Source: Gammaproteobacteria bacterium (GTDB taxonomy: Bacteria; Pseudomonadota; Gammaproteobacteria; Steroidobacterales; Steroidobacteraceae). Taken from it: a DNA stretch of 64,000 nt. The first letter of the stretch is position 1. The number at the start of each line of letters is the position of its first letter. The stretch lies in assembly GCA_004297335.1 (NCBI GenBank), contig SCUD01000078.1:1-64000 (forward strand), in the 5' to 3' direction. The notes beneath the pieces were generated by a model. The model was not told the origin of the DNA. It saw nothing but the letters and a program-made list of their open reading frames with translations, and did no database searches. Position numbers and translations under genes: made by a program. Positions 6,877 through 44,906 of the stretch are shown one piece after another.

Positions 6877-6889
6877 GGCGTATTCCAAA

Positions 6890-7000: not shown

Positions 7001-7014
7001 CTTCTATGCTCAAC

Positions 7015-7091
7015 TGGCGCGCCCGGAGAGATTCGAACTCCCGACCCCATGGTTCGTAGCCATGTACTCTATCCAGCTGAGCTACGGGCGC
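7015..7091 (-). tRNA. tRNA-Arg(ACG)
   Basis: Complete cloverleaf on the minus strand. The acceptor stem GCGCCCG pairs with CGGGCGC and the D-arm contains AGCTCAGCTGGATAGAG. The anticodon stem CATGG/CCATG carries loop CTACGAA (anticodon ACG, read as inosine-CG), and the T-arm contains GGTTCGAA-type sequence (GAGTTCGAATC). The discriminator is G and CCA is encoded (7017-7015). In E. coli, Arg(ACG) genes follow csrA and tRNA-Ser(GCU). The same order holds here, but with about 2.8 kb inserted between the two tRNAs. Confidence 0.97.
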
Positions 7092-7115
7092 GTGGTGGGC
7101 GCGAATCCTACCACA

Positions 7116-8990
7116 TCAGGCTGAGCGGACCAGAGCCGTCACGTCGAGCCGCGCCGTCTGTTCGAAGTCCCGGCGCGGCTTCGCCGCTTGGGCGACGGCA
7201 GGGTCGCCCACGGTCGCGCGGTCCCGCCCGCCTTCCTTGGAGCGGTATAGCGCGTCATCGGCGATGCGGACCAGATGATCGAACCGGGTGGCCATCGTGG
7301 AATCGGCAATGCCGAAGCTGGCCGTGAACGGCCGCGCGCCGACGGCCCCGACAGCGGCTGCCAGTTCCTGGCGCAGCCGCTCGAGCACCTCGAGGGCCGC
7401 AGCGGCGTTCGCCTCGGGCATCACGATCGCGAATTCCTCGCCGCCCCAGCGGGACACATGGTCGCCGGCCCGGACGACCCGGCGCAGCACATCCGCAAAC
7501 TGCCGCAGCGAGTTGTCGCCGACCCCGTGGCCATAGGTATCGTTGAGTTTCTTGAACTGATCCAGATCGGCCATGACGAAGGCATAACCCTGCCGCCGGG
7601 CCCCGAGCTGGCGCACGATCTCCTCGAGGGCGCGGCGATTGGCGAGCCCGGTGAGGCTGTCGGTGGCCGCCTGGATCTGAGTGCGCTCGAACGCGCGCAC
7701 CGTGCCGATGCGATTGCCAGCCTGAACGCCGAGTGCAGCGAGCCGCGCGATCTGCTCGCGGGTTGGCGGCTCCAGGACCGGGCCGGTGGTGTGGAGCACC
7801 CCGAGCGCCCGCCCCATGAAGTTCACGGGAACGCACAGGGCGCCCATAGGCCCGCCGGGCCGCCCGCGCAGCTGCGGGCAGGCATTAAGCGCGTCACTGT
7901 CGGCGAAAGCGACGCGACTCCCGCGGCGCACGGCAACGCAGTCGAACGGCGACTCGACGCCGCAGCCGGGCGCTCCGGCGAGCGGGTGCTGGGCAGCGCG
8001 CTCCAGCTGGGCGCGGCTGGAATCGGCGAGCAGCAGTTCCATCGGGCGATCGGCAGCGACCAGCTGCATGGCGCGGGTGACCGTCCCGTACACGGCCTCC
8101 TCGGTGTCGACCATCTCGAGCGCTTCGCCGAGCTGCGTACTGAACGCGTCGCGATCCGCATCCGCGCGCAGCCGGGCAATCATCTCTCCCAGGCTGCCGC
8201 CCATGCGATCGATGGCCTGAGCAAGCTCCCCGACCTCGTCCTGCGAGGTGACCTCGGTGCGCACGCTCAGGTCGCCATCGGCCATGGCGGCCGCTACGTC
8301 CCGCATCGCTCCCAGGGATCGGCGGATCGACCGGGCCAGCGCCCAGACAATCAGCGTGACAATGATCGACAGCAGGATCACGGCGGAGGTGATCCGCGTC
8401 CGCGCCAGCGCATTGGCGCGCCGGGCCAGCTGGTCCGCCGTGGCCAGGCGCGCCCTGATCAGGTCGGTCTGCGCATCCAGGGCAGTGCCGAGCGCATGCG
8501 ACATGGACTCGAATTCGCTGAGCCGCGCCACGGCGGCTAGCCGGTCACGGCTGGCCAGCGTCGCAATCTCGCCGGCCGTCGCGACATAGATCGCCGTTGC
8601 TGCCCGCGAGCGCTGTACCGCGGCCACGTCGTCTGCTCCGCCCGCCAGGCGGACCAGCGACTCCATCTCATCGAGGAGGGCCCGCGAATCCTCGCCAAGC
8701 CCCCGCAGGTTGGCGATCGAGTCGGCCGGGTCGCCAGCATCGGCATAGGAGTACAGAGCGGCAAAAACGCGGCTGCGCAGTACTTCCTGGCGCGTCCCGG
8801 CGTCCAGCGTCAGCTGCTGCTGGACATTGACGTTGGCCAGTTCCTCCATGGCGCGCGCCTGATGACCGAGAGCGCTGATCGCCAGGATGCCAACGACGGC
8901 CAGGGATGCACCGAACAGCCCGACGATCGCGAACAGGCGCGCCCGGACCGAGAGGTCGCTCCACCAGGAGAGTCGAATTACGGTTCCCAT
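7116..8990 (-). CDS. Membrane diguanylate cyclase (sensor-HAMP-GAF-GGDEF)
   Basis: Makes c-di-GMP. Two membrane helices (about residues 15-38 and 205-225) flank a helical periplasmic sensor region, followed by HAMP (about 226-280), a GAF-like domain (about 290-440) and a C-terminal GGDEF domain. The catalytic motif is GGEEF at about residue 514 with an RAGD I-site five residues before it, so the enzyme should be active and product-inhibited. ATG 8990 follows TGGCAGGC and lies 25 bases below a predicted transcription start. TTG 9032 would add 14 residues but falls upstream of that start. It sits between tRNA-Arg and the RHH/MazF pair. A CRP-like site lies upstream (9049-9064). Confidence 0.92.
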   Translation of the reverse strand: MGTVIRLSWWSDLSVRARLFAIVGLFGASLAVVGILAISALGHQARAMEELANVNVQQQLTLDAGTRQEVLRSRVFAALYSYADAGDPADSIANLRGLGEDSRALLDEMESLVRLAGGADDVAAVQRSRAATAIYVATAGEIATLASRDRLAAVARLSEFESMSHALGTALDAQTDLIRARLATADQLARRANALARTRITSAVILLSIIVTLIVWALARSIRRSLGAMRDVAAAMADGDLSVRTEVTSQDEVGELAQAIDRMGGSLGEMIARLRADADRDAFSTQLGEALEMVDTEEAVYGTVTRAMQLVAADRPMELLLADSSRAQLERAAQHPLAGAPGCGVESPFDCVAVRRGSRVAFADSDALNACPQLRGRPGGPMGALCVPVNFMGRALGVLHTTGPVLEPPTREQIARLAALGVQAGNRIGTVRAFERTQIQAATDSLTGLANRRALEEIVRQLGARRQGYAFVMADLDQFKKLNDTYGHGVGDNSLRQFADVLRRVVRAGDHVSRWGGEEFAIVMPEANAAAALEVLERLRQELAAAVGAVGARPFTASFGIADSTMATRFDHLVRIADDALYRSKEGGRDRATVGDPAVAQAAKPRRDFEQTARLDVTALVRSA

Positions 8991-9021
8991 GCCTGCCACA
9001 TCCACTCGAGGCGACGGGCGA

Positions 9022-9064
9022 ATTATTGACAAATCGGCAGGCCGCCTCTGTGCTCCGGCTCACA
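9022..9064 (-). promoter_or_regulatory. Candidate CRP/Vfr-type site and -10 box of the diguanylate cyclase gene
   Basis: TGTGC-N6-TCACA at 9049-9064 matches the CRP consensus TGTGA-N6-TCACA at 9 of 10 positions, and one further pair of flanking bases extends the dyad (TCTGTG/CACAGA, 9047-9066). On the minus strand AATAAT (9027-9022) is a 5-of-6 -10 box with no recognisable -35. A start near 9015 would put the site centre at about -41.5, the class II activator position. Confidence 0.45.
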
Positions 9065-9208
9065 GAAATCCGGCGCGGCGGAGTTGCGAAGTTGGAGGAG
9101 AGAGGAGTCAACCTGCCGGTGTAGGTGATTGCTTCACAGGGACATTCTCGACCGCCCGGATAATCGTACCAGCAGAATACCCACCGTGATCGCTAGAGCC
9201 AGGCGCGG

Positions 9209-9240
9209 ATGTGGAGTAATATGTGGATATGTATCCACAT
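9209..9240 (+). promoter_or_regulatory. Palindromic operator of the RHH/MazF operon
   Basis: Perfect 9-bp arms ATGTGGATA (9221-9229) and TATCCACAT (9232-9240) separated by TG. A further half site ATGTGGA lies at 9209-9215, exactly 12 bases before the first arm, on about the same helix face. The palindrome ends 14 bases before the antitoxin ATG. Ribbon-helix-helix antitoxins bind tandem half sites of this kind, so autorepression is likely. Confidence 0.7.
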
Positions 9241-9254
9241 TCGGTTCGACAGCC

Positions 9255-9488
9255 ATGAAGACGATTCAGATGACGATCGACGAGCGGCTGCTGAAGCTGG
9301 TCGACAAGATGAGCCGGGCTCGCAAGACCAACCGGTCGGCATTCATCCGCCAGGCACTCGAGGCCGAGATCCGGCGACAGCGAGTTCGCGAGGATCAGGC
9401 CCGTCATGCCGAGGGCTACGCGCGCAATCCGGTCGCGCCAGGCGAGTTCAATGACTGGCTCACTGAGCAGGATTGGGGCGCATCGTGA
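9255..9488 (+). CDS. Ribbon-helix-helix (CopG/MetJ-type) antitoxin
   Basis: A 77-residue protein. The N-terminus MKTIQMTIDERLLKLVDKM is the beta-strand and first helix of an RHH DNA-binding domain. It is followed by the turn KTNRSAFIRQALEAEI, typical of antitoxins. The tail (HAEGYARNPVAPGEFNDWL...) is the probable toxin-binding segment. Its stop overlaps the toxin start (GTGA, 9485-9488). The N-terminal strand supplies sequence-specific contacts in this family, and the palindrome at 9221-9240 just upstream is the likely binding site. No strong ribosome-binding site precedes ATG 9255. Confidence 0.9.
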   Translation: MKTIQMTIDERLLKLVDKMSRARKTNRSAFIRQALEAEIRRQRVREDQARHAEGYARNPVAPGEFNDWLTEQDWGAS

Positions 9489-9805
9489 ATCGAGGTGACG
9501 TCTGCTGGTACATGTTCAAGCCCCCTGACAGGAAGCGGCCGGTACTGGTCCTGACGCGCAACTCCGCCATTGCCGTGCTGAACTCCGTAACCATTGCGCC
9601 GATCACGTCGACGATTCGCAACATCCCGACAGAAATCATTCTCACGCGAGACGACGGCTTGCCGAATACCTGCGCGGCGAACTTCGACAACATCCAGACC
9701 GTGCCCAGGAGCAATGTCGGCGATCGCATCGCGCGGCTGACGGCGCGAAGAATGAGAGATGCTGCCGCAGCCATTTCGTTTGCGCTCGGATTCGACGACG
9801 AGTGA
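9485..9805 (+). CDS. MazF-family (PemK-like) endoribonuclease toxin
   Basis: Toxin partner of the RHH antitoxin, 106 residues. The MazF fold is shown by MNRGDVCWYMFKPPDRKRPVLVLTRN at the N-terminus (split here by the Pro-rich loop). VTIAPITSTIRNIPTEIIL, the active-site region, follows, then CAANFDNIQTVPRS. MazF enzymes cut single-stranded RNA at short motifs, but this one's specificity cannot be read. The start is GTG 9485, four bases of which overlap the antitoxin stop, so translation is coupled. The pairing of MazF with an RHH rather than an AbrB antitoxin is common. It is convergent with tRNA-Ser. Confidence 0.9.
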   Translation: MNRGDVCWYMFKPPDRKRPVLVLTRNSAIAVLNSVTIAPITSTIRNIPTEIILTRDDGLPNTCAANFDNIQTVPRSNVGDRIARLTARRMRDAAAAISFALGFDDE

Positions 9806-9877
9806 ATCTGCACCCTGCGCCGGAACACCCGGAGATTCAGGGATTCCAGGTATTCCGCCGGCAGTCTGTACTGAAGT

Positions 9878-9968
9878 TGGCGGAGAGAGAGGGATTCGAA
9901 CCCTCGATGGGCTTTTGACCCATACGCCCTTAGCAGGGGCGCGCCTTCGACCACTCGGCCATCTCTCC
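9878..9968 (-). tRNA. tRNA-Ser(GCU)
   Basis: Class II tRNA of 91 bases with encoded CCA (9880-9878). The acceptor stem GGAGAGA pairs with TCTCTCC and the anticodon loop CTGCTAA carries GCT. A long variable arm (GTATGGGTC-type stem) and a T-arm with GGTTCGAATCC follow. It lies directly downstream of csrA on the same strand, as in E. coli csrA-serV. Confidence 0.97.
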
Positions 9969-9974
9969 TGGTCG

Positions 9975-9991
9975 CCTTCCCACCGGGAAGG
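9975..9991. other. Perfect 7-bp hairpin between csrA and tRNA-Ser
   Basis: CCTTCCC (9975-9981), loop ACC, GGGAAGG (9985-9991). It ends seven bases before the tRNA-Ser 5' end. There is no T tract, so it is not a canonical terminator. It could be a csrA 3' end structure or a tRNA-leader processing element. Confidence 0.4.
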
Positions 9992-9998
9992 GGCGCAA

Positions 9999-10028
9999 AT
10001 GATACTGGCCGGGCCGGTGCCCGGTAAA
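9999..10028 (-). promoter_or_regulatory. Candidate tRNA-Ser promoter
   Basis: On the minus strand TTTACC (10028-10023), an 18-base spacer and TATCAT (10004-9999), with a GC-rich stretch (GCGCCCC) just after the -10, as at stable-RNA promoters under stringent control. The predicted start is about 24 bases upstream of the mature tRNA. Confidence 0.4.
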
Positions 10029-10045
10029 GGCCGACGACGACTCGG

Positions 10046-10273
10046 TCAGCAGCCGAGGCCGCTCACGCGTCGCTGGCCGTTCCCGTTCGGCACGAGTTCG
10101 TCCTTCTCGTGCTCGTGCTGAATGCGCTCGTAGATCTCTTCACGGTGCACGGAAACGGTCCGCGGGGCGTCGACGCCCAGCCGGACCTGGCTGCCCTTGA
10201 TTCCGAGTACCGTGACGGTGACTTCGTCACCGATCATCAGCGCCTCTCCCACCCGGCGGGTCAGTATGAGCAT
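10046..10273 (-). CDS. csrA: Carbon storage regulator, RNA-binding protein CsrA
   Basis: Small dimeric post-transcriptional regulator that binds GGA motifs in mRNA leaders and controls central carbon flux, motility and biofilm formation, often together with c-di-GMP enzymes such as the two in this window. The 75-residue protein begins [12 protein letters not shown] and retains the RNA-contacting Leu4 and Arg44 ([12 protein letters not shown]). The C-terminal tail is about 14 residues longer than in E. coli and ends in Cys. ATG 10273 is preceded by GAGAGGGGG. The bases immediately before the start contain AGGGAAT, a CsrA-type motif that would permit autorepression. The gene lies between lysC and tRNA-Ser, the usual gammaproteobacterial position. 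Confidence 0.97.
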
Positions 10274-10371
10274 TCCCTGGCGCCCCCTCTCGTTCCGCCC
10301 TGGCTCGCCCAAAATTCGCTTTGCAGTATGAACCAGGACGGTGCACTTTGGCAGGAAATCACCGTGGCCGC

Positions 10372-10402
10372 AAAAAATCCTGGCTGGAATCAATCCAGAC
10401 CA
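10372..10402 (-). terminator. Terminator at the lysC 3' end
   Basis: On the minus strand TGG-t-CTGGA (from 10402) pairs with TCCAG-CCA, an 8-bp stem with one bulged T and loop TTGAT, followed by GGATTTTTT ending at 10372. The stem overlaps the last codons and stop of lysC. Confidence 0.55.
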
Positions 10403-11598
10403 TAGGCCTGGTGCAGCGCCCGCACTGCGCGCTCGAGCTCGGCCTCCGCGACCAGCACGCTGATCTTGATCTCGGAGGTCGAGACCAGGCGGATGTTGAT
10501 GGCCAGGGCGGCCAGCGTCGCAAACAGCGTGGCAGCCACCCCGGCATGGGAGCGCATCCCGGAACCGACGATGGCAAGCTTGGCGACCTGTGGATCGCCG
10601 CTGACCCGGGCGCCGTCGCAGCCGGTGGCGGCGGCGCTGCAGAGCTCCAGCGCCTGGCGGAAGTCGTCCCGGTGCACGGTGAAGGTCAGGTCCACGCGCC
10701 CGCCCCGCGGCGCATTGACAACGATCATGTCGATCTCGATGCCGGCGGCTGCGATCGGTGCCAGCAGCGCGTGCGCCATGCCCGGCCGGTCCGGCACGTC
10801 GGCGACGGTGATGGCGGCCTCATCGCGATTGAAGGCGATGCCGGACACTAGCGGTGCTTCCATCGTGGACTCCTCCCTGCAGATCAGGGTGCCCGGCCCG
10901 GGCGTGAAACTCGACAGTACCCGCAGGCGGACCCCATGGCGGGCGGCGCATTCAACCGAGCGCAGGTGCAGGACGCGCGAACCCTGGCCGGCGAGTTCGA
11001 GCATTTCCTCGAAGCTGACCCGCTCCAGCCGCCGGGCCTGCGGCACCATCCGCGGATCGGTCGTATAGACGCCGTCGACGTCGGTCAGGATCTGGCATTC
11101 GTCGGCCCCGATTGCGGCCGCGAGTGCGACCGCGGTGGTGTCCGAGCCGCCGCGGCCGATGGTCGTGAGATCCCCGTTCGCGGCACGGCCCTGGAATCCG
11201 GCGACGACCGGCACGAGGCCCCGCGCGAGATCCTCGCGCAGCCCGGCCACGCCGATGCGTTCGAGCCGGGCTCGCCCCGCGAAGCCGCTGGTCTCGATCG
11301 GCAGCTGCAGTGCATTCCAGGAGCGCGCCGGCTGGCCACGCGCGCGGAGCGCCATCGCCAGCAGCGCCGTCGACACCATCTCCCCGGTCGCGAGCAGCGC
11401 GTCGAGCTCGCGCACATCAGGCGTCGGTGCAATTTCACGGGCGAGGTCGAGCAGCCGGTCGGTCGTGTCGCCCATCGCTGAGACGACGACCGCGACCTGG
11501 TGCCCCTGCCCCGCCAACTCCGTGACCTGGCCGGCCACCGCGGCGATGCGGGCGGCAGAACCCACCGACGTACCGCCGTACTTGCGGACGATCAGCAT
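10390..11598 (-). CDS. lysC: Aspartokinase with tandem ACT domains
   Basis: Phosphorylates L-aspartate, the first step towards lysine, threonine, methionine and diaminopimelate. The 402-residue protein has the kinase signature KYGGTSVG at the N-terminus, [12 protein letters not shown], and the [15 protein letters not shown] aspartate-binding stretch. Two ACT domains (about 265-402) include [17 protein letters not shown] and [16 protein letters not shown], so allosteric inhibition by lysine and/or threonine is expected. Start ATG 11598. The gene is in the usual alaS-lysC-csrA order, but a protease gene sits between it and alaS. No lysine-riboswitch leader is present, as only 45 bases separate it from the upstream gene. 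Confidence 0.95.
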
Positions 11599-11643
11599 GC
11601 AGGGCCGGCAGCGATGGCGATCGACGGGAACAGGAGCTGCGAC

Positions 11644-12561
11644 TCAGGAGCGCGGCAGGCGGATGTGGAGCTCGCGCCGGCGATAGTCGATGACCAGTAC
11701 TTCGAGCAGTCCCAGTACGTCCATGCCGATCAGCATCGCCGGTTCGCGCGTGAGCCGCCAGTGCCGGAAGATCTCCAGGTCGACGAAGGTCATCGCTGAG
11801 CTGCGCACGATGAGGTCACCCATCACGATTGGCGGTGTCGCGGCACGGTCCCCGGACTGCTGGTCCAGCGTCGTTCCGGTAATGGTATCGGGAACGGGCT
11901 GGCGGTGCCGGCCCTGCCGCTGCAAAGCGTCGCGCAGCGCGAGGTTGCCGAGGGTCGCCTGGCCACCGGTATCGATGATGGCCATGACCGGCACGCCGCC
12001 GATCTTCGCCTCGGCAACCAGCAGGCGCCCGCGCATGAACCGGAACGGGACGGTCACGAAGCCTTGCGCGGCCCGCTCCGAGTGCGAGCGCCGGATCTCG
12101 ATGCGGTCGCCGCGGAAGTCGATGAACACCCGCTTGTCGGCGAGTCCCTCAGTGCCCAGCACCCCTTCGGCGCCACCCAGCGCATCCGGGATGATGGCCA
12201 GCCGCCGCGGCTCGACCAGCAGGTCACCAAACTCCAGGCTTGCGACCGGAATCGTCGGCACGGTCGCGGACCCTGTTGCGCCGCGCAGGACCATCATCTC
12301 CTGTTGCTGCAGTGGAATGCCGAGTGCCTCGGCAACTTTCGCGGTCACGGCGGAATGGCTGGCGCCGGTGTCGAGCACGAGCCGGAACGGTCCCTGGCCG
12401 TCGATCTGGACCGGGGCCCAGATGCGGCCGATGCGGTCCCGGCGGGTCGGTGCCACGAAACGCGGCTCCGGCGCCGTCACAGCCAGCTCCTCGAGCAACG
12501 GGGGATCCGCTGCCGGGGCCAGACCGAGCAGCAGCGTGGCAGTCAGCGGCACCGTGAACAT
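11644..12561 (-). CDS. Exported aspartyl protease-like protein with two DTG motifs
   Basis: A 305-residue protein with an N-terminal hydrophobic signal (MFTVPLTATLLLGLAPA). It then has two retropepsin-like half domains: the first with LVLDTGASHSAV (about residue 63), the second with AIIDTGGQATLG (about residue 198). Both contain the catalytic Asp-Thr-Gly. Each half also carries an ALG(I/T)-type or LGMDVLG-type hydrophobic element (VLGTEGL and IGMDVLGLLEVLVIDY). Bacterial clan AA proteins with this two-lobed layout resemble pepsin in organisation, but their substrates are mostly unknown. A periplasmic location is inferred from the signal. It lies between alaS and lysC, which are neighbours in most relatives. 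Confidence 0.8.
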   Translation of the reverse strand: MFTVPLTATLLLGLAPAADPPLLEELAVTAPEPRFVAPTRRDRIGRIWAPVQIDGQGPFRLVLDTGASHSAVTAKVAEALGIPLQQQEMMVLRGATGSATVPTIPVASLEFGDLLVEPRRLAIIPDALGGAEGVLGTEGLADKRVFIDFRGDRIEIRRSHSERAAQGFVTVPFRFMRGRLLVAEAKIGGVPVMAIIDTGGQATLGNLALRDALQRQGRHRQPVPDTITGTTLDQQSGDRAATPPIVMGDLIVRSSAMTFVDLEIFRHWRLTREPAMLIGMDVLGLLEVLVIDYRRRELHIRLPRS

Positions 12562-35019: not shown

Positions 35020-36645
35020 GTGAAAATCCGTCGGGAATCCGAGCAGGCAGCGGGCGATCCGGAACTCGCGTGGCGAGTGCTCAGCCTGCTGAATCTCTAT
35101 CGCCTGGTCGTGCCGCCGATGCTCTCGGTGGTCGCGGCACTCGCTGGGCGGAGCTTCGCGCCGGGCTCGGCGTTTCCAGCGGCTTATTACTACACGCTGA
35201 CGGCCTGGTTCGCGACCGGCGTGCTGTGCATCCTGCTGCTGAAGCGGCGCTGGCCGAGCCTGCGCGGGCAGGCCTTCCTGCACATCGGCTGCGACGTGCT
35301 GGCGGTCACGCTGCTGCTGATCGCGAGCGCCGGGGCCGCCAGCGGCGTCGGCCTGCTGCTGATCCTGCCGGTCGCGGCCGTCAGCGTGCTGCTGCCGGTC
35401 AGGACGGCAGCGACCATCGCTGCCATCACCGCATTGATGGTGCTGGGACAACAGCTGCTGCTGGCGCTGGTCGGCCTCGCCGAATTCTCGGACCTGACCC
35501 AGGCCGGCCTGCTCGGCGCCGTGCTCTTCGTCGCTGCACTCGCCGCGGCGCCACTCGCCGGACGCCTGCGCGAGACCGAGGCGCTGGTCCGCCAGCGCGA
35601 CATCGACCTCGCCAACCTTGCGGAGCTCTCCCAGTATGTCGTCGAACGGCTGCGCGAGAGCCTCGTCGTCGTCGACGAGAGCGACCGGATCCGGCTGATG
35701 AACGAGTCGGCCCGGCAGATCCTCGGCGCCGAGGCCACCCCGAACGCGCTGCTTGGCGAGGTCTCGCCGCGACTGCTGTACCTGCTCGCGATGTGGCGCC
35801 AGGGCCCGCCCGACCTGGATACGACCGGTGGCAGCCTGCTGGCCGCGGATGGCCTGCGGGAAATCCGCCCGCATTTCGCCCCGCTCGGCCAGGCCCAGCC
35901 GGCGCCGGTGCTGATATTCCTCGAGGACCGCACGGCCCTCGACGACCGCATCCAGCAGACCCGGCTCGCCGCACTCGGGCGGCTCTCGGCGAGTATTGCC
36001 CACGAGATCCGCAACCCGATCGGCGCGATCAGCCACGCGGCCCAGCTGCTCGGCGAGGACGCGCAGCTGCCGGACCCGGACCGGCGCCTGACGGCCATCA
36101 TCCGGACCAACGCCGAGAGGGTCACCACGATCATCGGCAATATCCAGCAGCTGGCACGCCGCGAGACCACGCGACCCGAGCGCATGCCACTCGGCGAGTG
36201 GCTCCACGATTTCGTTCAGGAATTCCTGATCACCGGGGGCCATCGGGCCGAGCAGCTCGTCGTGGCACTGCCCGACCCGGAACTCGAGGTCCGCGTCGAT
36301 CCCTCGCACCTGCGCCAGATCCTGTGGAACCTCTGTGAAAATGCCTTCCGCTATGCGGCCGGCGCGGCCGGCGACCCCATCGAGCTGCGCGCGGACCGGC
36401 TGGCCGGCAGCAACCGTCCGTTCCTCGAGGTACTGGACCGCGGCCCGGGCATCGAGGCAGCCGCGGCCGAGCGGATCTTCGAGCCCTTTTTCACCTCGCG
36501 CGCCAGTGGCACGGGACTCGGGCTCTTCATCGCGCGCGAACTCGCCCAGTGCAACGGCGCGCTGCTGGTCTTCGAGCCGCGCCGCGGCGGTGGCAGCGTG
36601 TTCCGCATCGTATTCGCGGACCCGCAACGCTGGGAGCAGTTCTGA
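35020..36645 (+). CDS. pilS: Sensor histidine kinase PilS
   Basis: Inner-membrane kinase of the PilS/PilR system that controls pilin transcription; in Pseudomonas it senses pilin in the membrane. The 541-residue protein has six predicted membrane helices in the first 180 residues, then a PAS-like linker (about 195-310). The HisKA motif SASIAHEIRNPIGAI has phospho-accepting His328, and the HATPase domain has N-box NLCENAFRYA, G1 DRGPGI, F-box EPFFTSR and G2 GTGLGLFIAREL. Start GTG 35020. It is two bases from pilR and upstream of pilA, so assignment rests on context as well as on sequence. Confidence 0.93.
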   Translation: MKIRRESEQAAGDPELAWRVLSLLNLYRLVVPPMLSVVAALAGRSFAPGSAFPAAYYYTLTAWFATGVLCILLLKRRWPSLRGQAFLHIGCDVLAVTLLLIASAGAASGVGLLLILPVAAVSVLLPVRTAATIAAITALMVLGQQLLLALVGLAEFSDLTQAGLLGAVLFVAALAAAPLAGRLRETEALVRQRDIDLANLAELSQYVVERLRESLVVVDESDRIRLMNESARQILGAEATPNALLGEVSPRLLYLLAMWRQGPPDLDTTGGSLLAADGLREIRPHFAPLGQAQPAPVLIFLEDRTALDDRIQQTRLAALGRLSASIAHEIRNPIGAISHAAQLLGEDAQLPDPDRRLTAIIRTNAERVTTIIGNIQQLARRETTRPERMPLGEWLHDFVQEFLITGGHRAEQLVVALPDPELEVRVDPSHLRQILWNLCENAFRYAAGAAGDPIELRADRLAGSNRPFLEVLDRGPGIEAAAAERIFEPFFTSRASGTGLGLFIARELAQCNGALLVFEPRRGGGSVFRIVFADPQRWEQF

Positions 36646-36647
36646 AC

Positions 36648-37994
36648 ATGGCCGGCGCGGCGAATCCCAGGGCCCTGATCGTCGACGACGAACCGGATCT
36701 CTGCGAGTTGCTGTCGCTGACACTCGCGCGCATGGGCGTGGATTCGCAGGCCGTGCACGATCTGGCCGCGGCGCGCCGCGAGCTGCAGGGACGGCAGCAC
36801 TATGCGCTGTGCCTGACCGACCTGCGGCTGCCGGACGGTGACGGCCTGGAACTTGTCGCCTGGATCCAGGACCATGCCCCGGCACTGCCGGTAGCCGTGA
36901 TCACCGCGCATGGCCACGTCGAGGCCGCGGTGCGCGCACTGAAGCTCGGTGCCTTCGACTTCGTCTCCAAGCCGCTCGACGTGCCCGACCTGCGCAAGCT
37001 GGTCGGCCAGGCCCTGCGGCTCGCGGACGACCGCAAAGCCGCAGCGGCGGGTCACCGGCTGCTCGGCGACTCGGCGCCGATGCAGCAGCTGCGCGCGATG
37101 ATCGCCCGGGTGGCACGCAGCCAGGCGCCGGTGCACATCTGTGGTGAGTCGGGCACCGGCAAGGAACTCGTCGCGCGGCTGATCCACGAGTCCGGCCCGC
37201 GCAAGGATGCGCCATTCGTGCCGGTGAACTGCGGAGCCATTCCGGCGGAGCTGATGGAGAGTGAGCTGTTCGGCCACCGCAAGGGCAGCTTCACCGGCGC
37301 AGTTGCCGACAAGCCAGGGCTGGTGCAGGCCGCCGAGGGCGGCACGCTGTTCTTCGACGAAGTGGCGGACCTGCCCTTCACGATGCAGGTCAAGCTGCTG
37401 CGCCTGGTCCAGGAACGCACGGTACGTCCGATCGGAGAGCAGCTCGAGCAGCCGGTGGACGTGCGGATCCTGAGCGCGACCCACCGGGACCTCGGCGAAC
37501 TGGTGGCCGAGGGGCGCTTCCGCGAGGACCTGTACTACCGGATCAACGTCATCGAACTCCGGGTCCCGGCGCTCCGCCACCGACTGGAGGATATTCCGCA
37601 GCTGGCGACCGCGATCGTCGCGAGGCTCGCCGCGCGGATGGGCATGACGACTCCGGTGCTCAGCACCGAGGCGCTGGGGCTGCTCTGCGCTCACCGTTAC
37701 CCGGGCAACGTGCGCGAGCTGGAAAACGTGCTGGAGCGCGCCATCACCCTGTGCAATGGGGCCACGATCGAGGCGGCCGACATCGAGCTGCGCCCGACGC
37801 CGGCTGCGGATCCCGACGGCGCCGGCGACCCGCACGGCGCCACGGCCCTGCACGAGCAGTTGGAGGGCATCGAGCGCCTGAGCATCCAGCGGGCACTGGA
37901 GCAGGCCCGCTACAACAAGACCGCGGCCGCCAGGGCCCTCGGCATCAGCTTCCGGGCGCTGCGCTACCGGATCCGCAAGCTCGGCCTCGAGTGA
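36648..37994 (+). CDS. pilR: Sigma-54-dependent response regulator PilR
   Basis: NtrC-type activator of 448 residues. The receiver domain has the phospho-acceptor Asp58 in CLTDLRLPDGDG. The AAA+ domain has Walker A GESGTGKELVARLIH (about 166) and a sigma-54 contact loop GSFTGAV in which the usual GAFTGA reads G-S-FTGA. Walker B FFDEVADLP is followed by a C-terminal Fis-type helix-turn-helix (YNKTAAARALGISFRALRYRI). ATG 36648 follows pilS by two bases. It is expected to activate pilA from the sigma-54 promoter at 38115-38132, probably by binding the GTGAC repeats directly after its own stop codon. Confidence 0.95.
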   Translation: MAGAANPRALIVDDEPDLCELLSLTLARMGVDSQAVHDLAAARRELQGRQHYALCLTDLRLPDGDGLELVAWIQDHAPALPVAVITAHGHVEAAVRALKLGAFDFVSKPLDVPDLRKLVGQALRLADDRKAAAAGHRLLGDSAPMQQLRAMIARVARSQAPVHICGESGTGKELVARLIHESGPRKDAPFVPVNCGAIPAELMESELFGHRKGSFTGAVADKPGLVQAAEGGTLFFDEVADLPFTMQVKLLRLVQERTVRPIGEQLEQPVDVRILSATHRDLGELVAEGRFREDLYYRINVIELRVPALRHRLEDIPQLATAIVARLAARMGMTTPVLSTEALGLLCAHRYPGNVRELENVLERAITLCNGATIEAADIELRPTPAADPDGAGDPHGATALHEQLEGIERLSIQRALEQARYNKTAAARALGISFRALRYRIRKLGLE

Positions 37995-38114: not shown

Positions 38115-38132
38115 TTGGCACGAACCTTGCTT
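38115..38132 (+). promoter_or_regulatory. Sigma-54 promoter of pilA
   Basis: TTGGCACGAACCTTGCTT matches the RpoN consensus TGGCACG-N4-TTGCW, with GG and GC separated by exactly 10 bases. The predicted start is near 38142, 52 bases upstream of the pilA ATG. Confidence 0.9.
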
Positions 38133-38193: not shown

Positions 38194-38724
38194 ATGAAGG
38201 CAATCCAGAAGGGCTTCACGCTCATCGAACTGATGATCGTGGTGGCCATCATCGGCATCCTGGCCGCGATCGCGATCCCGGCGTACCAGGACTACACGAT
38301 CCGTTCGCAGGTGACGGAAGGCATGACCCTGGCCGGCGACCTCAAGGCGTCGATCGCCGAGTTCACGGCACAGACCGGCGAATGGCCGGCGGACCTGTCC
38401 GAAGCAGGACTGGGTTCCGCGGCCGTGGCGGCAAACAAGACGGGCCGCTACGTGTCCGGGGTGGACGTCACGAACGGCACCATCACGATCACCTACGGCA
38501 AGGATGCCAACCAGGCGATCCAGACCAAGACTCTCGCTTTCCAGCCGGTCGCGAATGACAACCAGGACATCGTCTGGCGGTGTGGGAAGGCCGATCAGCC
38601 GACCGACACTTCGACCAAGGCCACACCGACGAGCACAGTTGATTCGGACGACAGCGCTGCCGCTACGTCCGTCATCGACAAGTATGTGCCGTCTTCGTGC
38701 CGTGACGGGTACGGCGGTGCCTGA
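38194..38724 (+). CDS. pilA: Type IVa major pilin
   Basis: Pilus subunit precursor of 176 residues. The prepilin leader MKAIQKG is followed by the class III cleavage context [23 protein letters not shown], with Phe+1 and Glu+5 conserved. The hydrophobic N-terminal helix is followed by a globular domain. Two Cys (130 and 169) bound a C-terminal disulphide loop rich in Asp/Thr/Ser ([18 protein letters not shown]), a possible exposed and modifiable region. ATG 38194 follows AAGGAG. Transcription from a sigma-54 promoter under PilSR is supported upstream and a strong terminator follows. PilD (44019-44906) is the expected processing enzyme. Confidence 0.97.
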
Positions 38725-38760: not shown

Positions 38761-38793
38761 GCAGGGCCCCTGACGGCAGGGGCCCTGCCTTTT
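38761..38793 (+). terminator. Rho-independent terminator of pilA
   Basis: GCAGGGCCCC (38761-38770), eight-base loop, GGGGCCCTGC (38779-38788), then CTTTT. A perfect 10-bp GC-rich stem, separating the pilin transcript from the following enzyme gene. Confidence 0.9.
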
Positions 38794-38806: not shown

Positions 38807-40864
38807 ATGCCACACTGCTCCAGGAACCCGGATCGACCACTGCCCGGGTTCCTTCTCAGCCAGCTGCTCGGTGCCGGATCGCTGGCCCTCGCCGTCTGGT
38901 GGACGATGAGCGACCTGGCGCTCGCGCTGGCCAACAACAAGGTCACGGCGGCGCTGGTGTACGGGCAGGTGCTGGGACCGGTCCTGTCGCGCCGGCTGCT
39001 CGAATTCGCCATTGCTCTGCTCGCCGTGCATCTCGCCCTGGGCGGGCTCGCCTTTGCACTCGCCAGGCTCACGCTGGCCGCCGCGCCGCAGCGACTCGCC
39101 GGATGCCAGGCCCGGCTTGTCCTCGGATGGTTCACTGTCCTGGCGGCACTGGCCTGGCTCGCGAACGCGAGCTGGTATCCCGGATCGCGATTCGCCCCGG
39201 ACGCCGCCTGGCTCACCCGGGAATGGCACGGCTGGCGCTGGGCCCACCTGCCCGTACTCCTGGCCGCGGGCCTCACCGCGGCCCTTGCGCTGCGGTGCCT
39301 GTCCCGCTGGCGCCGTGTTCCGGGCCATGTTCCTTGGCTGGTCGTCGCGCTGGCAGCAGCCTGGGCGGGCGGATTCCTGCCGTTCCAGGACTCGGCGGCC
39401 TCGCGCCCGGCACCCCGGTTCGAGGCGCCACATGTGGTGATTCTCGGACTGGACTCGCTGCGGGACGACCTGGCCGGCAGCCAGTCCGACCCGCACCTGA
39501 CGCCGAACATCGATGCCTTCCTGGACGGCGCCCATCGTTTCGGTGACACGATCAGTCCGCTGGCCCGTACCTATCCGGCGCTGGTCTCCATCCTGACCGG
39601 CAGGCACCCGGTCGCGACCCAGGCCCGATTCAACCTGATGCCGCGCGCCCGGGTCGCGGAAGGCGACACGCTGGCCGACGCGCTGCGCAGCTCCGGATAC
39701 CAGACGATCTACGCGACCGACGAAGTGCGCTTCGCCAATCTCGACGAGTCCTTCGGTTTCGACCAGCTGGTCACGCCGCCAGTGGGTGCCTCCGACTTCC
39801 TGCTGGGCAAGGCCGGCGACCTCCCGCTCGTGAACCTGTTGTCGGCAACTGCGGCAGGAGCTGCGCTGTTCCCCGCCAGCCATGCGAACCGCGCCGTGCC
39901 CGTGACCTATCAACCCCGGCATTTCGTGGCCCGGCTCAAGCAGGAAATCACGGTGGACCGCCCGACCTTCCTGATGATCCACCTGACGCTGTCCCACTGG
40001 CCCTACAGCTGGGCGGGCCTGCGCAGTCCGACGACACCACAGGAATATCGCCCGGCGTACACGCGCGCGGTTGCAGCACTCGACCAGCAGTTCGCCGAGG
40101 TCACCCGGCTGCTCGAGGACAAGGGCGTGCTCGACAACGCGATCGTCGTCGTGCTGTCGGACCACGGCGAGGCCCTGGGCTGGCCTGGCGACAGCATGCT
40201 GCGCAAGACCGGCACCCCTCAGGAAATCTGGAATTCCCTGTGGGGCCACGGCACCAGCGTGATGAGCCCGCACCAGTACAGCGTCTTCCTGGCGATGCGC
40301 GGTTTTGGCCGCACGGTGCTGCCCGGCGACCCCGTCAATCACGGCTGGCCCGTTTCCCTCGAGGATGTCCGGCCGACACTGCAGCAGATCGCCACCGGCA
40401 CGGTGCCAGCGGACGTGACCGGCAGGTCGCTGCTGCCGCTCCTCGATGGAACCCTGGACCCGGCAGCACTCGCGGAGCGCATCCGCTTCACCGAGACCGA
40501 CTTCAACACACCGATGGTGCTCGCCGGCAAGTACAATCCCTCCGGCCTGGTCCACGAAGGGGCCGCCTACTATGAGATCATGCCAGCCAGTGGCTGGATG
40601 CAACTGAAGGCCGCGCGCCTCCCGGAACTGATGAATCGCAAGGAGCGTGCGGCCGTGTCCCGGGAATCCCTGCTCGCCGCGATTCCTTCCGGGAACGGGG
40701 AGGCCGTGTCGTACCTGTTCACCGACCGACGGTCGCCGCTGCCACGGCGCCTGGCCGGCCGGCCTGACCCGGGCGTCGAGCCGGAAGCCGCGCGGCTCTG
40801 GGATGCCCTGCACGAACGGTTTGCCGGCGAGCTCCCGCCAACCCGGGACACGCCGCATCTGTGA
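38807..40864 (+). CDS. Membrane alkaline-phosphatase-superfamily enzyme with Thr nucleophile, candidate pilin phosphoform transferase
   Basis: A 685-residue inner-membrane protein: four predicted helices (about 15-200), then a periplasmic sulfatase/alkaline-phosphatase fold. Metal ligands are visible at Asp216 (ILGLDSLRDD), Asp452/His453 (LSDHGE) and His481 (GHGTS). Where sulfatases have CxPSR, this protein has Thr255 in RTYPALVSILTG, as in LtaS and phosphoethanolamine transferases, so a phosphotransfer role is more likely than sulfate hydrolysis. It lies directly after pilA and before pilB, which suggests that it modifies the pilin or the envelope near the pilus, as PptA does in Neisseria. 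That role is inferred. ATG 38807 is 14 bases after the pilA terminator. Confidence 0.8.
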   Translation: MPHCSRNPDRPLPGFLLSQLLGAGSLALAVWWTMSDLALALANNKVTAALVYGQVLGPVLSRRLLEFAIALLAVHLALGGLAFALARLTLAAAPQRLAGCQARLVLGWFTVLAALAWLANASWYPGSRFAPDAAWLTREWHGWRWAHLPVLLAAGLTAALALRCLSRWRRVPGHVPWLVVALAAAWAGGFLPFQDSAASRPAPRFEAPHVVILGLDSLRDDLAGSQSDPHLTPNIDAFLDGAHRFGDTISPLARTYPALVSILTGRHPVATQARFNLMPRARVAEGDTLADALRSSGYQTIYATDEVRFANLDESFGFDQLVTPPVGASDFLLGKAGDLPLVNLLSATAAGAALFPASHANRAVPVTYQPRHFVARLKQEITVDRPTFLMIHLTLSHWPYSWAGLRSPTTPQEYRPAYTRAVAALDQQFAEVTRLLEDKGVLDNAIVVVLSDHGEALGWPGDSMLRKTGTPQEIWNSLWGHGTSVMSPHQYSVFLAMRGFGRTVLPGDPVNHGWPVSLEDVRPTLQQIATGTVPADVTGRSLLPLLDGTLDPAALAERIRFTETDFNTPMVLAGKYNPSGLVHEGAAYYEIMPASGWMQLKAARLPELMNRKERAAVSRESLLAAIPSGNGEAVSYLFTDRRSPLPRRLAGRPDPGVEPEAARLWDALHERFAGELPPTRDTPHL

Positions 40865-40990
40865 CGGGGATCACCCGGGGCGAAGCTGGCTTGTGGGAGC
40901 ATCTTGGCCGATTTAACAATTGCCGGCGGGCCCTGAAGGGGTTCATTATTTGCCGCCAGGGACCATGAATGTCCAGGACGAACTGACCGG

Positions 40991-42730
40991 ATGAACGAAA
41001 GCGCAAGCGCGATGGCGAGCCCGGTGCGGGCAGTCCTGTCAGGACTGCCCCAGCGCCTCGTGCAGGACGGCCTGCTCGACGAGGCGGCAATGCTCGATGC
41101 GATCGCCAGTGCCCGTGAGCGCAAGACCCACCTCGTCAGCTGGCTGGTGTCGCGCGAACTGGCCGGCGCCCGTGACATCGCGGTCGCCGCGGCCCAGGAG
41201 TTCGGCGTCGCGCTGCTCGATCTGGACGCCGTCAGTATCGACATCGACACGGTCCGGCTGGTCAACGAGAAGCTGCTGGCCAAGCACCGGGTCCTGCCCC
41301 TGGTCAAGCGCGGCAAGCGCCTGCACGTCGCGGTCTCGGATCCGACCAACCTGCACGCGGTCGACGAGATCAAGTTCCAGACCGGGCTGTCGATCGAGGC
41401 CGTGGTCGTCGAGGACGACAAGCTGCAGCGCGCGGTGCAGAAGGCCATCGAGCAGGTCGACACCTCGATGCCCTCGCTTGGCGAGGACGACTTCGCGCTC
41501 GACAACCTCGAGATCACCTCGGACGAGGAGGTCGAGGCCAGCGTCACCCGCGACGACGTCGAGGACGCGCCGATCGTCCGCTTCGTCAACAAGATCATGC
41601 TCGACGCGATCCGCCGCAACGCCTCGGACATCCACTTCGAACCCTACGAGAGGTACTACCGCATCCGGCTGCGCATCGACGGCGTGCTGCGCGAGATTGC
41701 CCAGCCGCCGGTGCAGCTCGCGACCAAGCTCGCCGCGCGCCTGAAGGTCATGTCGCGGCTCGACATCGCCGAGCGGCGCGTGCCCCAGGACGGGCGCATC
41801 AAGATGCGCCTGTCCAAGAACCGCTCGATCGACTTCCGCGTCAGCAGCTGCCCGACGCTGTTTGGCGAGAAGATCGTGCTGCGCATCCTGGACGCCAGCA
41901 CCGCCATGATGGGCATCGATGCGCTGGGCTACGAGCCGTTCCAGAAAGATCTGTACATGAAGACGCTGGCGCGACCCCAGGGCATGATTCTGGTGACCGG
42001 CCCGACCGGCAGCGGCAAGACGGTCTCGCTGTACACGGGCCTGTCGATCCTGAATGTCGAGGACACCAACATCTCGACCGCCGAGGATCCGGCGGAAATC
42101 GTCCTGCCGGGCGTCAACCAGGTCAACGTGAATCCCAAGGTCGGGTTGACCTTCGCCGCCGCGCTGCGCGCCTTCCTGCGCCAGGACCCGGATGTCATCA
42201 TGGTCGGCGAGGTCCGTGACCTGGAAACCGCCGAGATCGCGATCAAGGCGGCGCAGACCGGCCACCTGGTGCTGTCCACGCTGCATACGAACGATGCGCC
42301 GCAAACGCTGACCCGGATGATCGACATGGGGGTCAAGCCCTATGCGATCGCGACCTCGGTGAGCCTGATCATCGCCCAACGGCTCGCCCGGCGACTGTGC
42401 AACAGCTGCAAGGCCGAGTTGAAGCTGCCGGCCGAGGCGGCGCTGCGCGAGGGCTTCTCTCACGAACAGGTGGAACGGCCGGACTTCCGGATCTACCGGG
42501 CGGTGGGCTGCAGCCAGTGTACGGACGGCTTCAAGGGCCGCGTAGGCATCTACGAGGTGCTGCCGGTGACCGAGTCGATCGGCCGGATCATCCTCGAGGG
42601 CGGCAGTGCCCCCCATATCCGCGACCAGGCCCGCAAGGAGGGGGTCTGGGACCTGCGCACGTCTGCGCTCAAGAAGGTGCTGGACGGGGTCACGAGTCTC
42701 GAGGAAGTCAACCGCGTCACGGTCGAGTGA
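40991..42730 (+). CDS. pilB: Type IV pilus extension ATPase PilB
   Basis: Cytoplasmic GspE-family hexameric ATPase driving pilin polymerisation. The 579-residue protein has an N-terminal GspE-N domain (about 20-170). The ATPase domain has Walker A GPTGSGKT (about 337), an Asp box and Walker B-type RQDPDVIMVGEVRD, and a His box GHLVLSTLHTNDA. A tetracysteine zinc motif (CNSCKAEL ... CSQCTDG) lies near residue 475. ATG 40991 gives a plausible N-terminus. The upstream 126 bases contain a CATTAT -10-like box with a TTGCCG element 18 bases upstream, but no sigma-54 promoter. It is first in pilB-pilC-pilD-coaE-zapD-yacG. Confidence 0.97.
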   Translation: MNESASAMASPVRAVLSGLPQRLVQDGLLDEAAMLDAIASARERKTHLVSWLVSRELAGARDIAVAAAQEFGVALLDLDAVSIDIDTVRLVNEKLLAKHRVLPLVKRGKRLHVAVSDPTNLHAVDEIKFQTGLSIEAVVVEDDKLQRAVQKAIEQVDTSMPSLGEDDFALDNLEITSDEEVEASVTRDDVEDAPIVRFVNKIMLDAIRRNASDIHFEPYERYYRIRLRIDGVLREIAQPPVQLATKLAARLKVMSRLDIAERRVPQDGRIKMRLSKNRSIDFRVSSCPTLFGEKIVLRILDASTAMMGIDALGYEPFQKDLYMKTLARPQGMILVTGPTGSGKTVSLYTGLSILNVEDTNISTAEDPAEIVLPGVNQVNVNPKVGLTFAAALRAFLRQDPDVIMVGEVRDLETAEIAIKAAQTGHLVLSTLHTNDAPQTLTRMIDMGVKPYAIATSVSLIIAQRLARRLCNSCKAELKLPAEAALREGFSHEQVERPDFRIYRAVGCSQCTDGFKGRVGIYEVLPVTESIGRIILEGGSAPHIRDQARKEGVWDLRTSALKKVLDGVTSLEEVNRVTVE

Positions 42731-42780: not shown

Positions 42781-44001
42781 ATGCCGCCGAGCGCCGCTCT
42801 CGCCAGGGACACCCCGTTCGTTTGGGAAGGCAAGGACCGCAAGGGCAACAAGATCCGGGGACGTTCGCTCGCCAACAACGAGAAGGACGTCCGCGCCGAA
42901 CTGCGTCGCCAGAACATCGTCCCGACCCGGATCCGCAAGCAGCGGCAGCTGTTCAGCACCGGCGGCAAGATCACGCCCGGGGACATCGCGATCTTCAGCC
43001 GCCAGCTGGCGACGATGCTGACCGCGGGTATCCCGCTGGTCCAGGCCTTCGAGATCGTCGGCGTCGGCCACGAGAAACCGGCGATGCAGAAGCTGATCCT
43101 CGACATCAAGCTGAATATCGAGGGCGGCAGCACGCTGCATGAGTCGCTGGCCAAGCACCCGCTTTATTTCGACGATCTCTTCATCAACCTGGTCGAGGCC
43201 GGCGAGCAGGCCGGCGCGCTCGAGAGCCTGCTCGACAAGGTCGCGACCTACAAGGAGAAGACCGAGGCGCTGAAGAAGAAGATCAAGAAGGCCCTGTTCT
43301 ACCCGGCGGCCGTGCTGGTGGTCGCCGTCATCGTCACGCTGATCCTGCTGATCTTCGTGATCCCGCAGTTCGAAGCGCTGTTCAAGGGCTTCGGCGCCGA
43401 CCTGCCGGCGTTTACCCGCATGGTCATCAGCCTGTCGCAGTTCGTGCAGACCCAGGGCTGGTGGATGGGCCTGCTGGCCGGCGGCACCATCGCCGCGTTT
43501 GCGTACTTCAAGAAGCGCTCGCGGGCGATGCGCCAGCTGCTGGACCGCCTGATGCTGAAGCTGCCGGTGGTCGGCCCGATCCTGGTGAAGGCGGCGATCG
43601 CACGCTACGCCCGCACACTCGCCACGATGTTCTCCGCCGGCGTGCCGCTGGTCGAAGCGATGGAATCCGTCGCGGGCGCCACCGGCAACATCGTCTACGA
43701 GCAGGCCGTCATGCGCATGCGTGACGAGGTCGCCACCGGCCAGCGCCTGCAGCGGGCGATGGAGAACACCGGGCTGTTCCCGAACATGGTCGTGCAGATG
43801 ATCGCGGTCGGCGAGGAGTCCGGCTCGCTGGACGAGATGGCCAGCAAGGTCGCCGATTTCTATGAACTGGAGGTCGATGCCGCCGTCGATGCCCTGTCGA
43901 GCCTGCTCGAGCCCTTGATCATGGCAATCCTGGGCGTGCTCGTCGGCGGGCTGGTCATCGCGATGTACCTGCCGATCTTCAAGCTGGGCGCCGTGATCTG
44001 A
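42781..44001 (+). CDS. pilC: Type IV pilus inner-membrane platform protein PilC
   Basis: GspF-family protein of 406 residues that couples PilB to the growing pilus. Two T2SSF repeats are seen. Each has the FSRQLATML(T)AGIPL or YARTLATMFSAGVPLVEA element, and three membrane helices follow (about 175-200, 225-245 and 375-400). VGEESGSLDEM and the C-terminal LVGGLVIAMYLPIFKLG are family hallmarks. ATG 42781 follows GAGGACG. The 50-base gap after pilB contains an AT-rich palindrome, CTTAT-CAT-ATAAG (42742-42754), a possible internal promoter element. Confidence 0.97.
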   Translation: MPPSAALARDTPFVWEGKDRKGNKIRGRSLANNEKDVRAELRRQNIVPTRIRKQRQLFSTGGKITPGDIAIFSRQLATMLTAGIPLVQAFEIVGVGHEKPAMQKLILDIKLNIEGGSTLHESLAKHPLYFDDLFINLVEAGEQAGALESLLDKVATYKEKTEALKKKIKKALFYPAAVLVVAVIVTLILLIFVIPQFEALFKGFGADLPAFTRMVISLSQFVQTQGWWMGLLAGGTIAAFAYFKKRSRAMRQLLDRLMLKLPVVGPILVKAAIARYARTLATMFSAGVPLVEAMESVAGATGNIVYEQAVMRMRDEVATGQRLQRAMENTGLFPNMVVQMIAVGEESGSLDEMASKVADFYELEVDAAVDALSSLLEPLIMAILGVLVGGLVIAMYLPIFKLGAVI

Positions 44002-44018: not shown

Positions 44019-44906
44019 GTGGAGCTGTTCGCAGCCAGCCCGGCCGCATGGGTGGCTGCGGTGGCGGTCCTCGGACTCGTCGTTGGCAGTTTCCTCAACG
44101 TCGTGATCCTGCGCCTGCCGCCGCTGCTCGAGTGGCGGTGGCGGCGCGAGTGCGCGCAAGTACCCGGGGTCACGGTACCGGCAGAGACCGGGAAGCCGGC
44201 TGGCCTGGTGCGGCCGCGCTCGCGTTGCCCGTCCTGCCGCGCACCGATCCGCGCGCTGCACAATATTCCGGTGCTGAGCTGGCTCGCGCTGCGCGGCCGT
44301 TGCGCCGCCTGCCAGGCACCGATCTCCCCGCGCTATCCGCTGGTGGAGCTCGCCACCGCGATCCTGTCGGCGCTGGTCGCGTCGCGGTTCGGATTCACGC
44401 CCGAGGCCGGTCTCGCGCTGGTCCTGACCTGGGCCCTGGTCGCGCTCACCGGCATCGACCTCGACCACCAGCTGTTGCCCGACCTGCTGACGCTGCCGCT
44501 GCTGTGGATCGGCCTGCTCGCCAGCCTGGCCCATGACCCGGGTGGAGCCCTGGCCCTGCCCGCCAGCCCGCAGGACGCGATCCTCGGGGCTGCCGGCGGC
44601 TATGCGTTCCTGTGGCTCGTTTTCCAGCTCTTCCGGCTGCTGACCGGCAAGGAGGGCATGGGCTATGGCGACTTCAAGCTCTTCGCCGCCGCGGGCGTCT
44701 GGCTGGGCTGGCAGATGCTGCCGCTCGTACTGCTGTTGTCCGCGGTCGTGGGTGCCACGGTCGGACTGGTGATGATCGCCGCCAAGCGCCACGGGCGCGG
44801 CATCCCGATCCCGTTCGGACCCTTCCTCGCGGGGGCCACCTGGATCGCGGCACTGTGGGGCCCGACCATCGTCGATGCGTACCTCGGCGTCGCCGGGCTG
44901 CGCTAA
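44019..44906 (+). CDS. pilD: Prepilin leader peptidase and N-methyltransferase PilD
   Basis: Aspartic membrane peptidase that cleaves and N-methylates prepilins such as PilA. The 295-residue protein starts at GTG 44019. The N-terminal methyltransferase domain has GSFLNVVILRLP and a cytoplasmic zinc motif with two CxxC pairs (CPSC ... CAAC). The peptidase Asp residues lie in ALTGIDLDHQLLPD and in GMGYGDFKLFAA (the GxGD motif), and about seven membrane helices are predicted. It is 17 bases from pilC. A GspO-type role for a type II secretion system cannot be excluded. Confidence 0.95.
   Translation: MELFAASPAAWVAAVAVLGLVVGSFLNVVILRLPPLLEWRWRRECAQVPGVTVPAETGKPAGLVRPRSRCPSCRAPIRALHNIPVLSWLALRGRCAACQAPISPRYPLVELATAILSALVASRFGFTPEAGLALVLTWALVALTGIDLDHQLLPDLLTLPLLWIGLLASLAHDPGGALALPASPQDAILGAAGGYAFLWLVFQLFRLLTGKEGMGYGDFKLFAAAGVWLGWQMLPLVLLLSAVVGATVGLVMIAAKRHGRGIPIPFGPFLAGATWIAALWGPTIVDAYLGVAGLR

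Follow-up and report, generated by a model that had tools for sequence, protein, structure and literature searches.

Within the window (the whole stretch of DNA analysed, 64,000 nucleotides), the genes for the major type IV pilin, pilA, and the pilus extension ATPase, pilB, are separated by an additional gene that encodes a predicted membrane enzyme of the alkaline phosphatase (AP) superfamily. This gene (hereafter X; 38807..40864, + strand) starts with ATG and specifies a protein of 685 residues, with five predicted transmembrane helices and an AP-superfamily domain (PF00884) in which Thr255 occupies the nucleophile position. On balance, we lean towards the view that X is a pilin-accessory phosphotransferase of the inner membrane, acting on pilin or on its glycan and doing a PptA/PptB-like job from another branch of the superfamily.

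The gene order in the window is pilS-pilR-pilA-X-pilB-pilC-pilD-coaE-zapD. The sensor kinase gene pilS (35020..36645), the sigma-54 response regulator gene pilR (36549..37994), pilC (42781..44001) and the prepilin peptidase gene pilD (44019..44906), all on the + strand, were recognised by profile matches. The product of pilA (38194..38724, + strand) matches PF00114 (E 1.9e-19) and carries the N-methylation motif, and that of pilB (40991..42730, + strand) scores 838.7 bits with TIGR02538 against a cut-off of 675.65, which confirms the position between the two genes given for X in the original prediction. The frame itself, also proposed there, is taken as a real gene because homologues of similar length with the same conserved residues occur in other genomes; the window protein matches the PF00884 Sulfatase model with 85.4 bits against a gathering score of 25 (E 5.6e-24). 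Elsewhere in the window, genes for tRNA-Arg and tRNA-Ser lie on the - strand at 7015-7091 and 9878-9968.

A sigma-54-like -24/-12 promoter, TGGCACGAACCTTGCT, is found 5' of pilA (38116..38131, + strand). It is the sole match in the window to the pattern at one mismatch or fewer, and with a chance mean of 0.63 matches per window the match alone is weak. The 82-base gap between pilA and X folds with a z of -5.3 and contains a 12-pair GC hairpin followed by CTTTT (38761..38788, + strand), a candidate attenuating terminator, in agreement with the earlier claim of a pilA terminator just before X; it is absent from the output of a terminator scan that demands five T in eight. Given this hairpin behind pilA, and since a search of the + strand between 37900 and 41100 revealed no promoter of the sigma-70 type, X is probably expressed by read-through.

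The catalytic residues assigned to X, namely Asp216, Thr255 (within RTYPAL), Asp452, His453 and His481, were all located in the translation, and an alignment of 30 X relatives shows how closely they are kept. The Asp216 position is Asp, and the Asp452 and His453 positions are invariant, in all 30 sequences; His481 is conserved in 28, and His392 and His397 in 29 each. The metal ligands predicted to be retained are therefore near-invariant, and the predicted exchange of the sulfatase Cys for Thr holds equally well, with Thr in 29 members, Ser in one and Cys in none. Two sequences excluded from this alignment (L005 and L055) both retain the Thr, L055 with GQG in place of GHG. Thr and GHG are furthermore kept in all 16 pilin-linked rows of a separate alignment, and in a PDB alignment Thr255 pairs with C84, the mutated residue of the sulfatase entries 6pt6 and 6ptk.

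The hallmarks of S1 sulfatases are an FGly motif, C/S-x-P-x-R, and an Asp-Asp pair at the first metal site. As a candidate S1/FGly sulfatase, X failed on both: besides the missing Cys, the position of the CxPxR Arg is W/L and that of the second sulfatase Asp is Ser/Ala in every one of the 30 aligned members. Because neither the Cys nor the Arg is present in any of them, X does not belong to the FGly sulfatases. Sulfatases do give its best matches in Pfam and the PDB; against these changes at the nucleophile, the Arg and the second metal Asp, a true sulfatase is hardly credible.

The AlphaFold model of X (pLDDT 87.0, pTM 0.90) has five long N-terminal helices, with the AP domain beginning at about residue 205. 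S1 sulfatases and phosphonate monoester hydrolases (PMH) fill the leading rows of a Foldseek search with this model. VIA-align, in which rows within 1 Z were treated as ties, gave sulfatases at Z 33.0 and 31.0 and the periplasmic domain of YejM at Z 29.7 (3.1 A over 315 residues), and a profile search of PDB sequences returned sulfatases at 9e-31 and PMH at 4e-20. Folded alone, the membrane domain was uninformative, reaching only Z <= 5.2, to unrelated helical proteins. PF00884 matches all 30 members at E<=1. No NCBIfam model attains its cut-off for the window protein, the phosphoethanolamine--lipid A transferase model giving 9.2 bits against 500; among the members, 18 of 30 match the LtaS model and 17 of 30 the EptA domain model at E<=1, far under cut-off. 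PF08019, which we take to be the EptA_B N-terminal domain, is absent from the four Pfam families that match the window protein at E<=1 and from the 25 Pfam families, of 26 in all, that were listed for the 30 members. EptA and LtaS are unnamed among the 50 structure matches listed for X, an absence that excludes nothing.

EptA and LtaS share a Thr nucleophile and a five-helix membrane topology with X, whereas their first metal ligand is Glu and that of X is Asp. The original prediction of an LtaS/EptA/PptA-type active site thus stands for the nucleophile and the topology but not for the nearest branch, given the Asp first ligand in 30/30, the missing PF08019 and the sulfatases, PMH and YejM that rank first. 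The structural search, proposed with the LtaS, EptA and PptA families in mind, returned sulfatases, PMH and YejM first; the active site contradicts a true sulfatase. As far as sequence and model can indicate, X appears nearest to S1 sulfatases, phosphonate monoester hydrolases and YejM, not to EptA/PptA. Its AP domain is closest by sequence and fold to S1 sulfatases and PMH, from which X differs in having Thr for Cys/FGly, no CxPxR Arg and a membrane anchor. With YejM/PbgA/LapC it shares a membrane part joined to an AP-fold periplasmic domain; the YejM model (NF038282) nonetheless gives only 13.9 bits on the window protein against a cut-off of 825, and X retains the Thr/Asp/His set.

These relationships bear on two further readings. 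X could act in the opposite sense, as a phosphodiesterase of the periplasm that strips a group off pilin, the pilin glycan or a lipid carrier. The closest solved folds are indeed sulfatases and phosphonate monoester hydrolases, all 30 members match the phosphodiesterase model PF01663 (31.4 bits for the window protein against a cut-off of 23), and the TFPAW motif is reminiscent of the NPP family, which uses a Thr nucleophile. A five-helix anchor is, however, typical of lipid-donor transferases such as LtaS and EptA, and an enzyme that adds a group is the simpler reading for a gene beside glycosyltransferase genes; we regard removal as improbable. Still less probable, and in our view very unlikely, is a role in assembly or regulation without catalysis, resembling that of TfpY or the hydrolase-like domain of YejM. 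YejM/PbgA is among the closest folds and, according to PMC11841053, TfpY contributes to assembly and no modification is reported for pilins of group III, but the near-invariant catalytic positions, including Thr and GHG in 16/16 pilin-linked rows, speak against such a factor.

The phosphotransferase reading draws much of its pilin connection from the distribution of X. Within the GTDB family of the window, X is rare (10 of 217 genomes, 11 copies, E<=1e-20), and every copy belongs to the pil locus, although its place varies: X can precede or follow pilA, in either orientation. The order is pilSR-pilA-X-pilB in G1102 and X-pilA-pilB in G1092, whereas X lies between pilR and pilA in G024 and G167; in the latter, other genes spanning about 5 kb follow pilR. 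X is divergent from pilA in G219, and in G215 one copy precedes pilA with a second, divergent copy beside it; the two stand side by side, adjoining pilA, at 7641-12034 of locus L032. X adjoins pilB in G1129 and G1130, where the upstream side lies beyond the contig (locus L003 is identical in sequence to that of G1129), and a C-terminal piece of X is found beside pilR at a contig end in G1119.

Among 30 X-minus relatives examined by a PilA search, 20 have pilA and pilB within a single 3-3.5 kb locus that shows no match to X. Within this family, the claim that X is not part of the standard pil cluster agrees with this count. The other ten comprise three contig ends, G048 (which has two other genes between pilA and pilB), one locus with partial matches only (L123) and five loci in which no pilA was clearly recognisable. 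In the window, the stretch from X to pilB aligns to the pilA-pilB gap of an X-free genome of the same genus (G289) with a score of 101, whereas none of 100 shuffles exceeded 58. The pilB leader (40871..40990, + strand), which resembles that gap, marks the right edge of the change; the gain or loss of X was a clean one, confined to the interval from pilA to this leader.

Beyond the family, the association with pilin genes is looser. An order-level sample yielded X in 5 of 296 genomes at E<=1e-20, all from the window's family. In a class-level sample X was present in 21 of 369 genomes at E<=1e-15, with 20 loci in 19 genomes outside the window's family; five of these (G432, G538, G598, G592 and G336) have a pilA-type pilin gene nearby, at distances ranging from immediately adjacent to 5.1 kb, and 15 were scored as unlinked within the stretches read, some of which were cut by contig ends. 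A phylum-level sample gave X in 4 of 398 genomes, two of them new, and both new loci lie near Flp/Tad pilin genes (1.3 kb in L058, 3.1 kb in L059). The Flp_Fap scores of these pilins, 28.3 and 20.1 bits, are under the curated 32.2, and the call rests also on CpaA/CpaB/CpaC-like neighbours named by eye from translations. Finally, the family of Thauera phenolivorans has X in 7 of 297 genomes, two of them pilin-linked (Thauera and G1303) and five scored unlinked.

In Thauera phenolivorans strain ZV1C (L006), X lies directly 3' of a pilin gene. There, at 3280-4315, this complete pilin gene is preceded by the beginning of another, almost identical one that is interrupted by undetermined sequence, a possible tandem pilin duplication. 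At about 5212-8988 of the G1303 locus (L164), a pilin gene is followed by an X that an insert of about 1.5 kb divides into two parts, so that the pilin-X pair is disrupted.

In total, 20 of 40 surveyed loci are pilin-linked (11/11 in the window's family, 5/20 in the class sample, 2/2 in the phylum sample and 2/7 in the Thauera family). The proposed co-occurrence of X with pilA consequently holds for all family copies but for only half of the loci overall. L005, a short contig with no pil match, is omitted from this count. Three loci were scored as unlinked by judgement: L038 has a PilT/PilU-like ATPase about 3.6 kb from X, L054 a GspG-like pseudopilin and a GspF/PilC-like gene about 5 kb away, and L163 a pseudopilin-like frame about 4.7 kb away; L049, with pilA 5.1 kb off, was scored as linked.

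In a tree of 32 X rows, those from the window's family form a supported group of eight, and a separate supported group contains 14 unlinked rows, L038 and L054 among them. The pilin-linked label, which covered 14 rows without the two Flp loci, requires five changes on this tree, compared with a shuffled mean of 10.6. Most genomes with unlinked X (13 from the 14-member clade, and G535) do contain a PilA-like match at E<=1e-4 (13/14, some N-terminal only, with G460 the one in which this search gave none), and 7 of the 14 reach the PilB cut-off. No recurrent neighbour was found in more than 3 of the 14 loci of the unlinked clade. A relative of X away from pil genes also occurs in Legionella adelaidensis (WP_058462547.1; L060, 6443-8449), beside a DUF547 gene, recR and dnaX.

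Chance linkage was assessed in 12 X-plus genomes, chosen because X is linked there, in which PF00884 matches at 48 places (13 X and 35 other). Thirty of these places were taken as loci, comprising 7 X and 23 of the 35 others. No type IV or Flp pilin motif was found within about 1.5 kb of any of the 23 non-X loci, compared with 4 of the 7 X loci fetched in the same way (p 0.0013). Measuring flanks from the X match and taking the full set of X loci in these genomes, 9 of 13 have such a motif (p 8e-6). Because the control genomes were picked for linked X, a fairer figure is 9 of 28 X loci from the order, class and phylum surveys (p 0.0023). A stricter Flp pattern gives 8/13 and 8/28, the looser one adding the Flp pilin beside L056; a motif match at L023 was dropped, being inside a 437-residue frame with non-pilin-like sequence. 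The neighbourhood of X and pilin genes is beyond chance.

A different explanation for this neighbourhood is that X modifies another envelope molecule, such as LPS or exopolysaccharide, and that accessory genes in general are simply tolerated as insertions beside pilA. Twenty of the 40 surveyed loci have no pilin link, and the same slot also holds a methyltransferase-like and beta-lactamase-fold pair (in G024 and the X-free G048) and an acyltransferase (in G1102), all of which would fit. A merely tolerant site accounts less well for the absence of other PF00884 genes beside pilins (0/23, from the 23 fetched of 35), for the presence of X near the Flp pilins of a separate Tad system in two genomes, or for the persistence of the link while the position of X around pilA varies. 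We therefore consider action on another envelope molecule unlikely.

The immediate surroundings of X point towards surface modification. Pilin-accessory cassettes consist of an accessory gene beside pilA, behind a terminator (PMC11841053, part of the text), and X likewise adjoins the major pilin gene and, where it lies 3' of pilA, is separated from it by a terminator hairpin. Strong hairpins were present in 5/5 same-strand pilA-X gaps tested (the window, L097, L037, L046 and L006; the control was a simple mononucleotide shuffle); in L037 the hairpin overlaps the beginning of X as called, and the start of that frame is uncertain. The pilA of the X-free locus L100 also carries a terminator hairpin, so the hairpin marks pilA, not X. 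PMT_2 and GT2 proteins accompany X both beside pilA (L034) and near flp (L059), and are 31% and 42% identical between the two loci; LPG_synthase_TM is above cut-off in L059 and only below it in L034, with no BLAST match between them. A GT2 and an O-antigen-ligase-like protein lie near X in L049.

Other genes occupy the same region. Related proteins of 640-680 residues (37-38% identity) are encoded beside pilA and X at L049 7033-8967 and L050 1534-3570; that of L050 has borderline TPR matches and that of L049 no Pfam match, and they are possibly an uncharacterised pilin glycosylation protein. An Acyl_transf_3 membrane acyltransferase lies between X and pilB in G1102 (L097, 4798-6072). Methyltransferase-like (ICMT/PEMT) and beta-lactamase-fold genes form a pair between pilA and pilB at L033 10522-12881 (G024, with X) and L165 3838-6324 (G048, X-free), which is a candidate for another pilin-accessory module. 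Together, these genes suggest that the pilA flank is a slot for surface-modification genes.

Several other leads failed. The Ser/Thr/Asp-rich pilin loop, originally taken as a hint of modification, is not distinctive: the last two Cys are 28-39 residues apart in seven X-plus pilins and 29-44 apart in X-minus full-length PilA-type pilins (L099-L120), and with overlapping lengths the disulfide loop was rejected as a substrate clue. Phage carriage was likewise rejected, with two weak relatives in viral contigs (23 and 26% identity) and one partial match in a phage collection. Among plasmids, 19 records have partial matches to X, the best in Legionella adelaidensis, beside housekeeping genes. Composition gave no signal of recent foreign origin (X GC 0.692, window 0.694; X GC3 0.840 against 0.836-0.929 in six pil genes).

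The phosphotransferase reading can be set out as a sequence of steps. Five predicted helices would hold X in the inner membrane, with its catalytic domain probably in the periplasm, where metal bound at Asp216, Asp452 and His453 would activate Thr255. The Thr could then attack the phosphodiester of a membrane-borne donor, perhaps a phospholipid head group or a lipid-linked phospho-sugar, giving a Thr-phospho intermediate on X from which the group would pass to a hydroxyl of pilin or pilin glycan before pilus assembly. The promoter-like element and hairpin seen in the window would place expression of X in read-through past the hairpin, behind a PilR/sigma-54-driven pilA. In favour of an accessory phosphotransferase are the near-invariant active site, the model of the AP domain, the pilin linkage, the control at 0/23, the hairpins in 5/5 gaps and the modification-gene neighbours. 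Against it are the 14-copy unlinked clade, the unlinked majority (5/7) of Thauera-family copies, nearest folds that are hydrolases, ordinary pilin loops, a hairpin that is not specific to X, the choice of linked-X genomes and the five changes of label on the tree.

There is precedent for such chemistry. Meningococcal pilin carries phosphocholine (PC) or PEA on Ser69 with pptA, and phosphoglycerol with pptB (PMC10948894, part of the text). By analogy, Neisseria PptA/PptB may resemble X in the proposed job only, the placing of phospho-groups on pilin. The EptA-type Glu first ligand and N-terminal domain are not found in X, a distinction drawn from these features and not from PptA/PptB sequences. 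In genomic position, the TfpO/TfpW/TfpY cassettes of Pseudomonas aeruginosa are similar, each with an accessory gene beside pilA behind a terminator (PMC11841053, part of the text). The same text describes TfpY as an assembly factor and the other two as glycosyltransferases, whereas X is an AP-superfamily enzyme whose gene may precede or follow pilA. Glycosyltransferases and assembly factors are the only classes of pilin-accessory gene covered in that part of PMC11841053, and among the titles and abstract openings listed from the open-licence literature we found none describing a sulfatase-like or phosphotransferase gene linked to pilin.

Taken more broadly, and with slightly less than even confidence, we propose that X founds a pilin-accessory family from the sulfatase/YejM branch that places phospho-linked groups on the pilins, or their glycans, of two separate pilus systems (type IVa and Flp/Tad), and that is acquired and lost as a movable cassette beside the pilin gene, possibly under selection by phages that bind pili. 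If the proposal is correct, another enzyme class would occupy the pilin-accessory slot, beside both type IVa and Tad pilins, which would widen the pilus chemistry to be expected, and X would serve as a sequence marker for modified pili.
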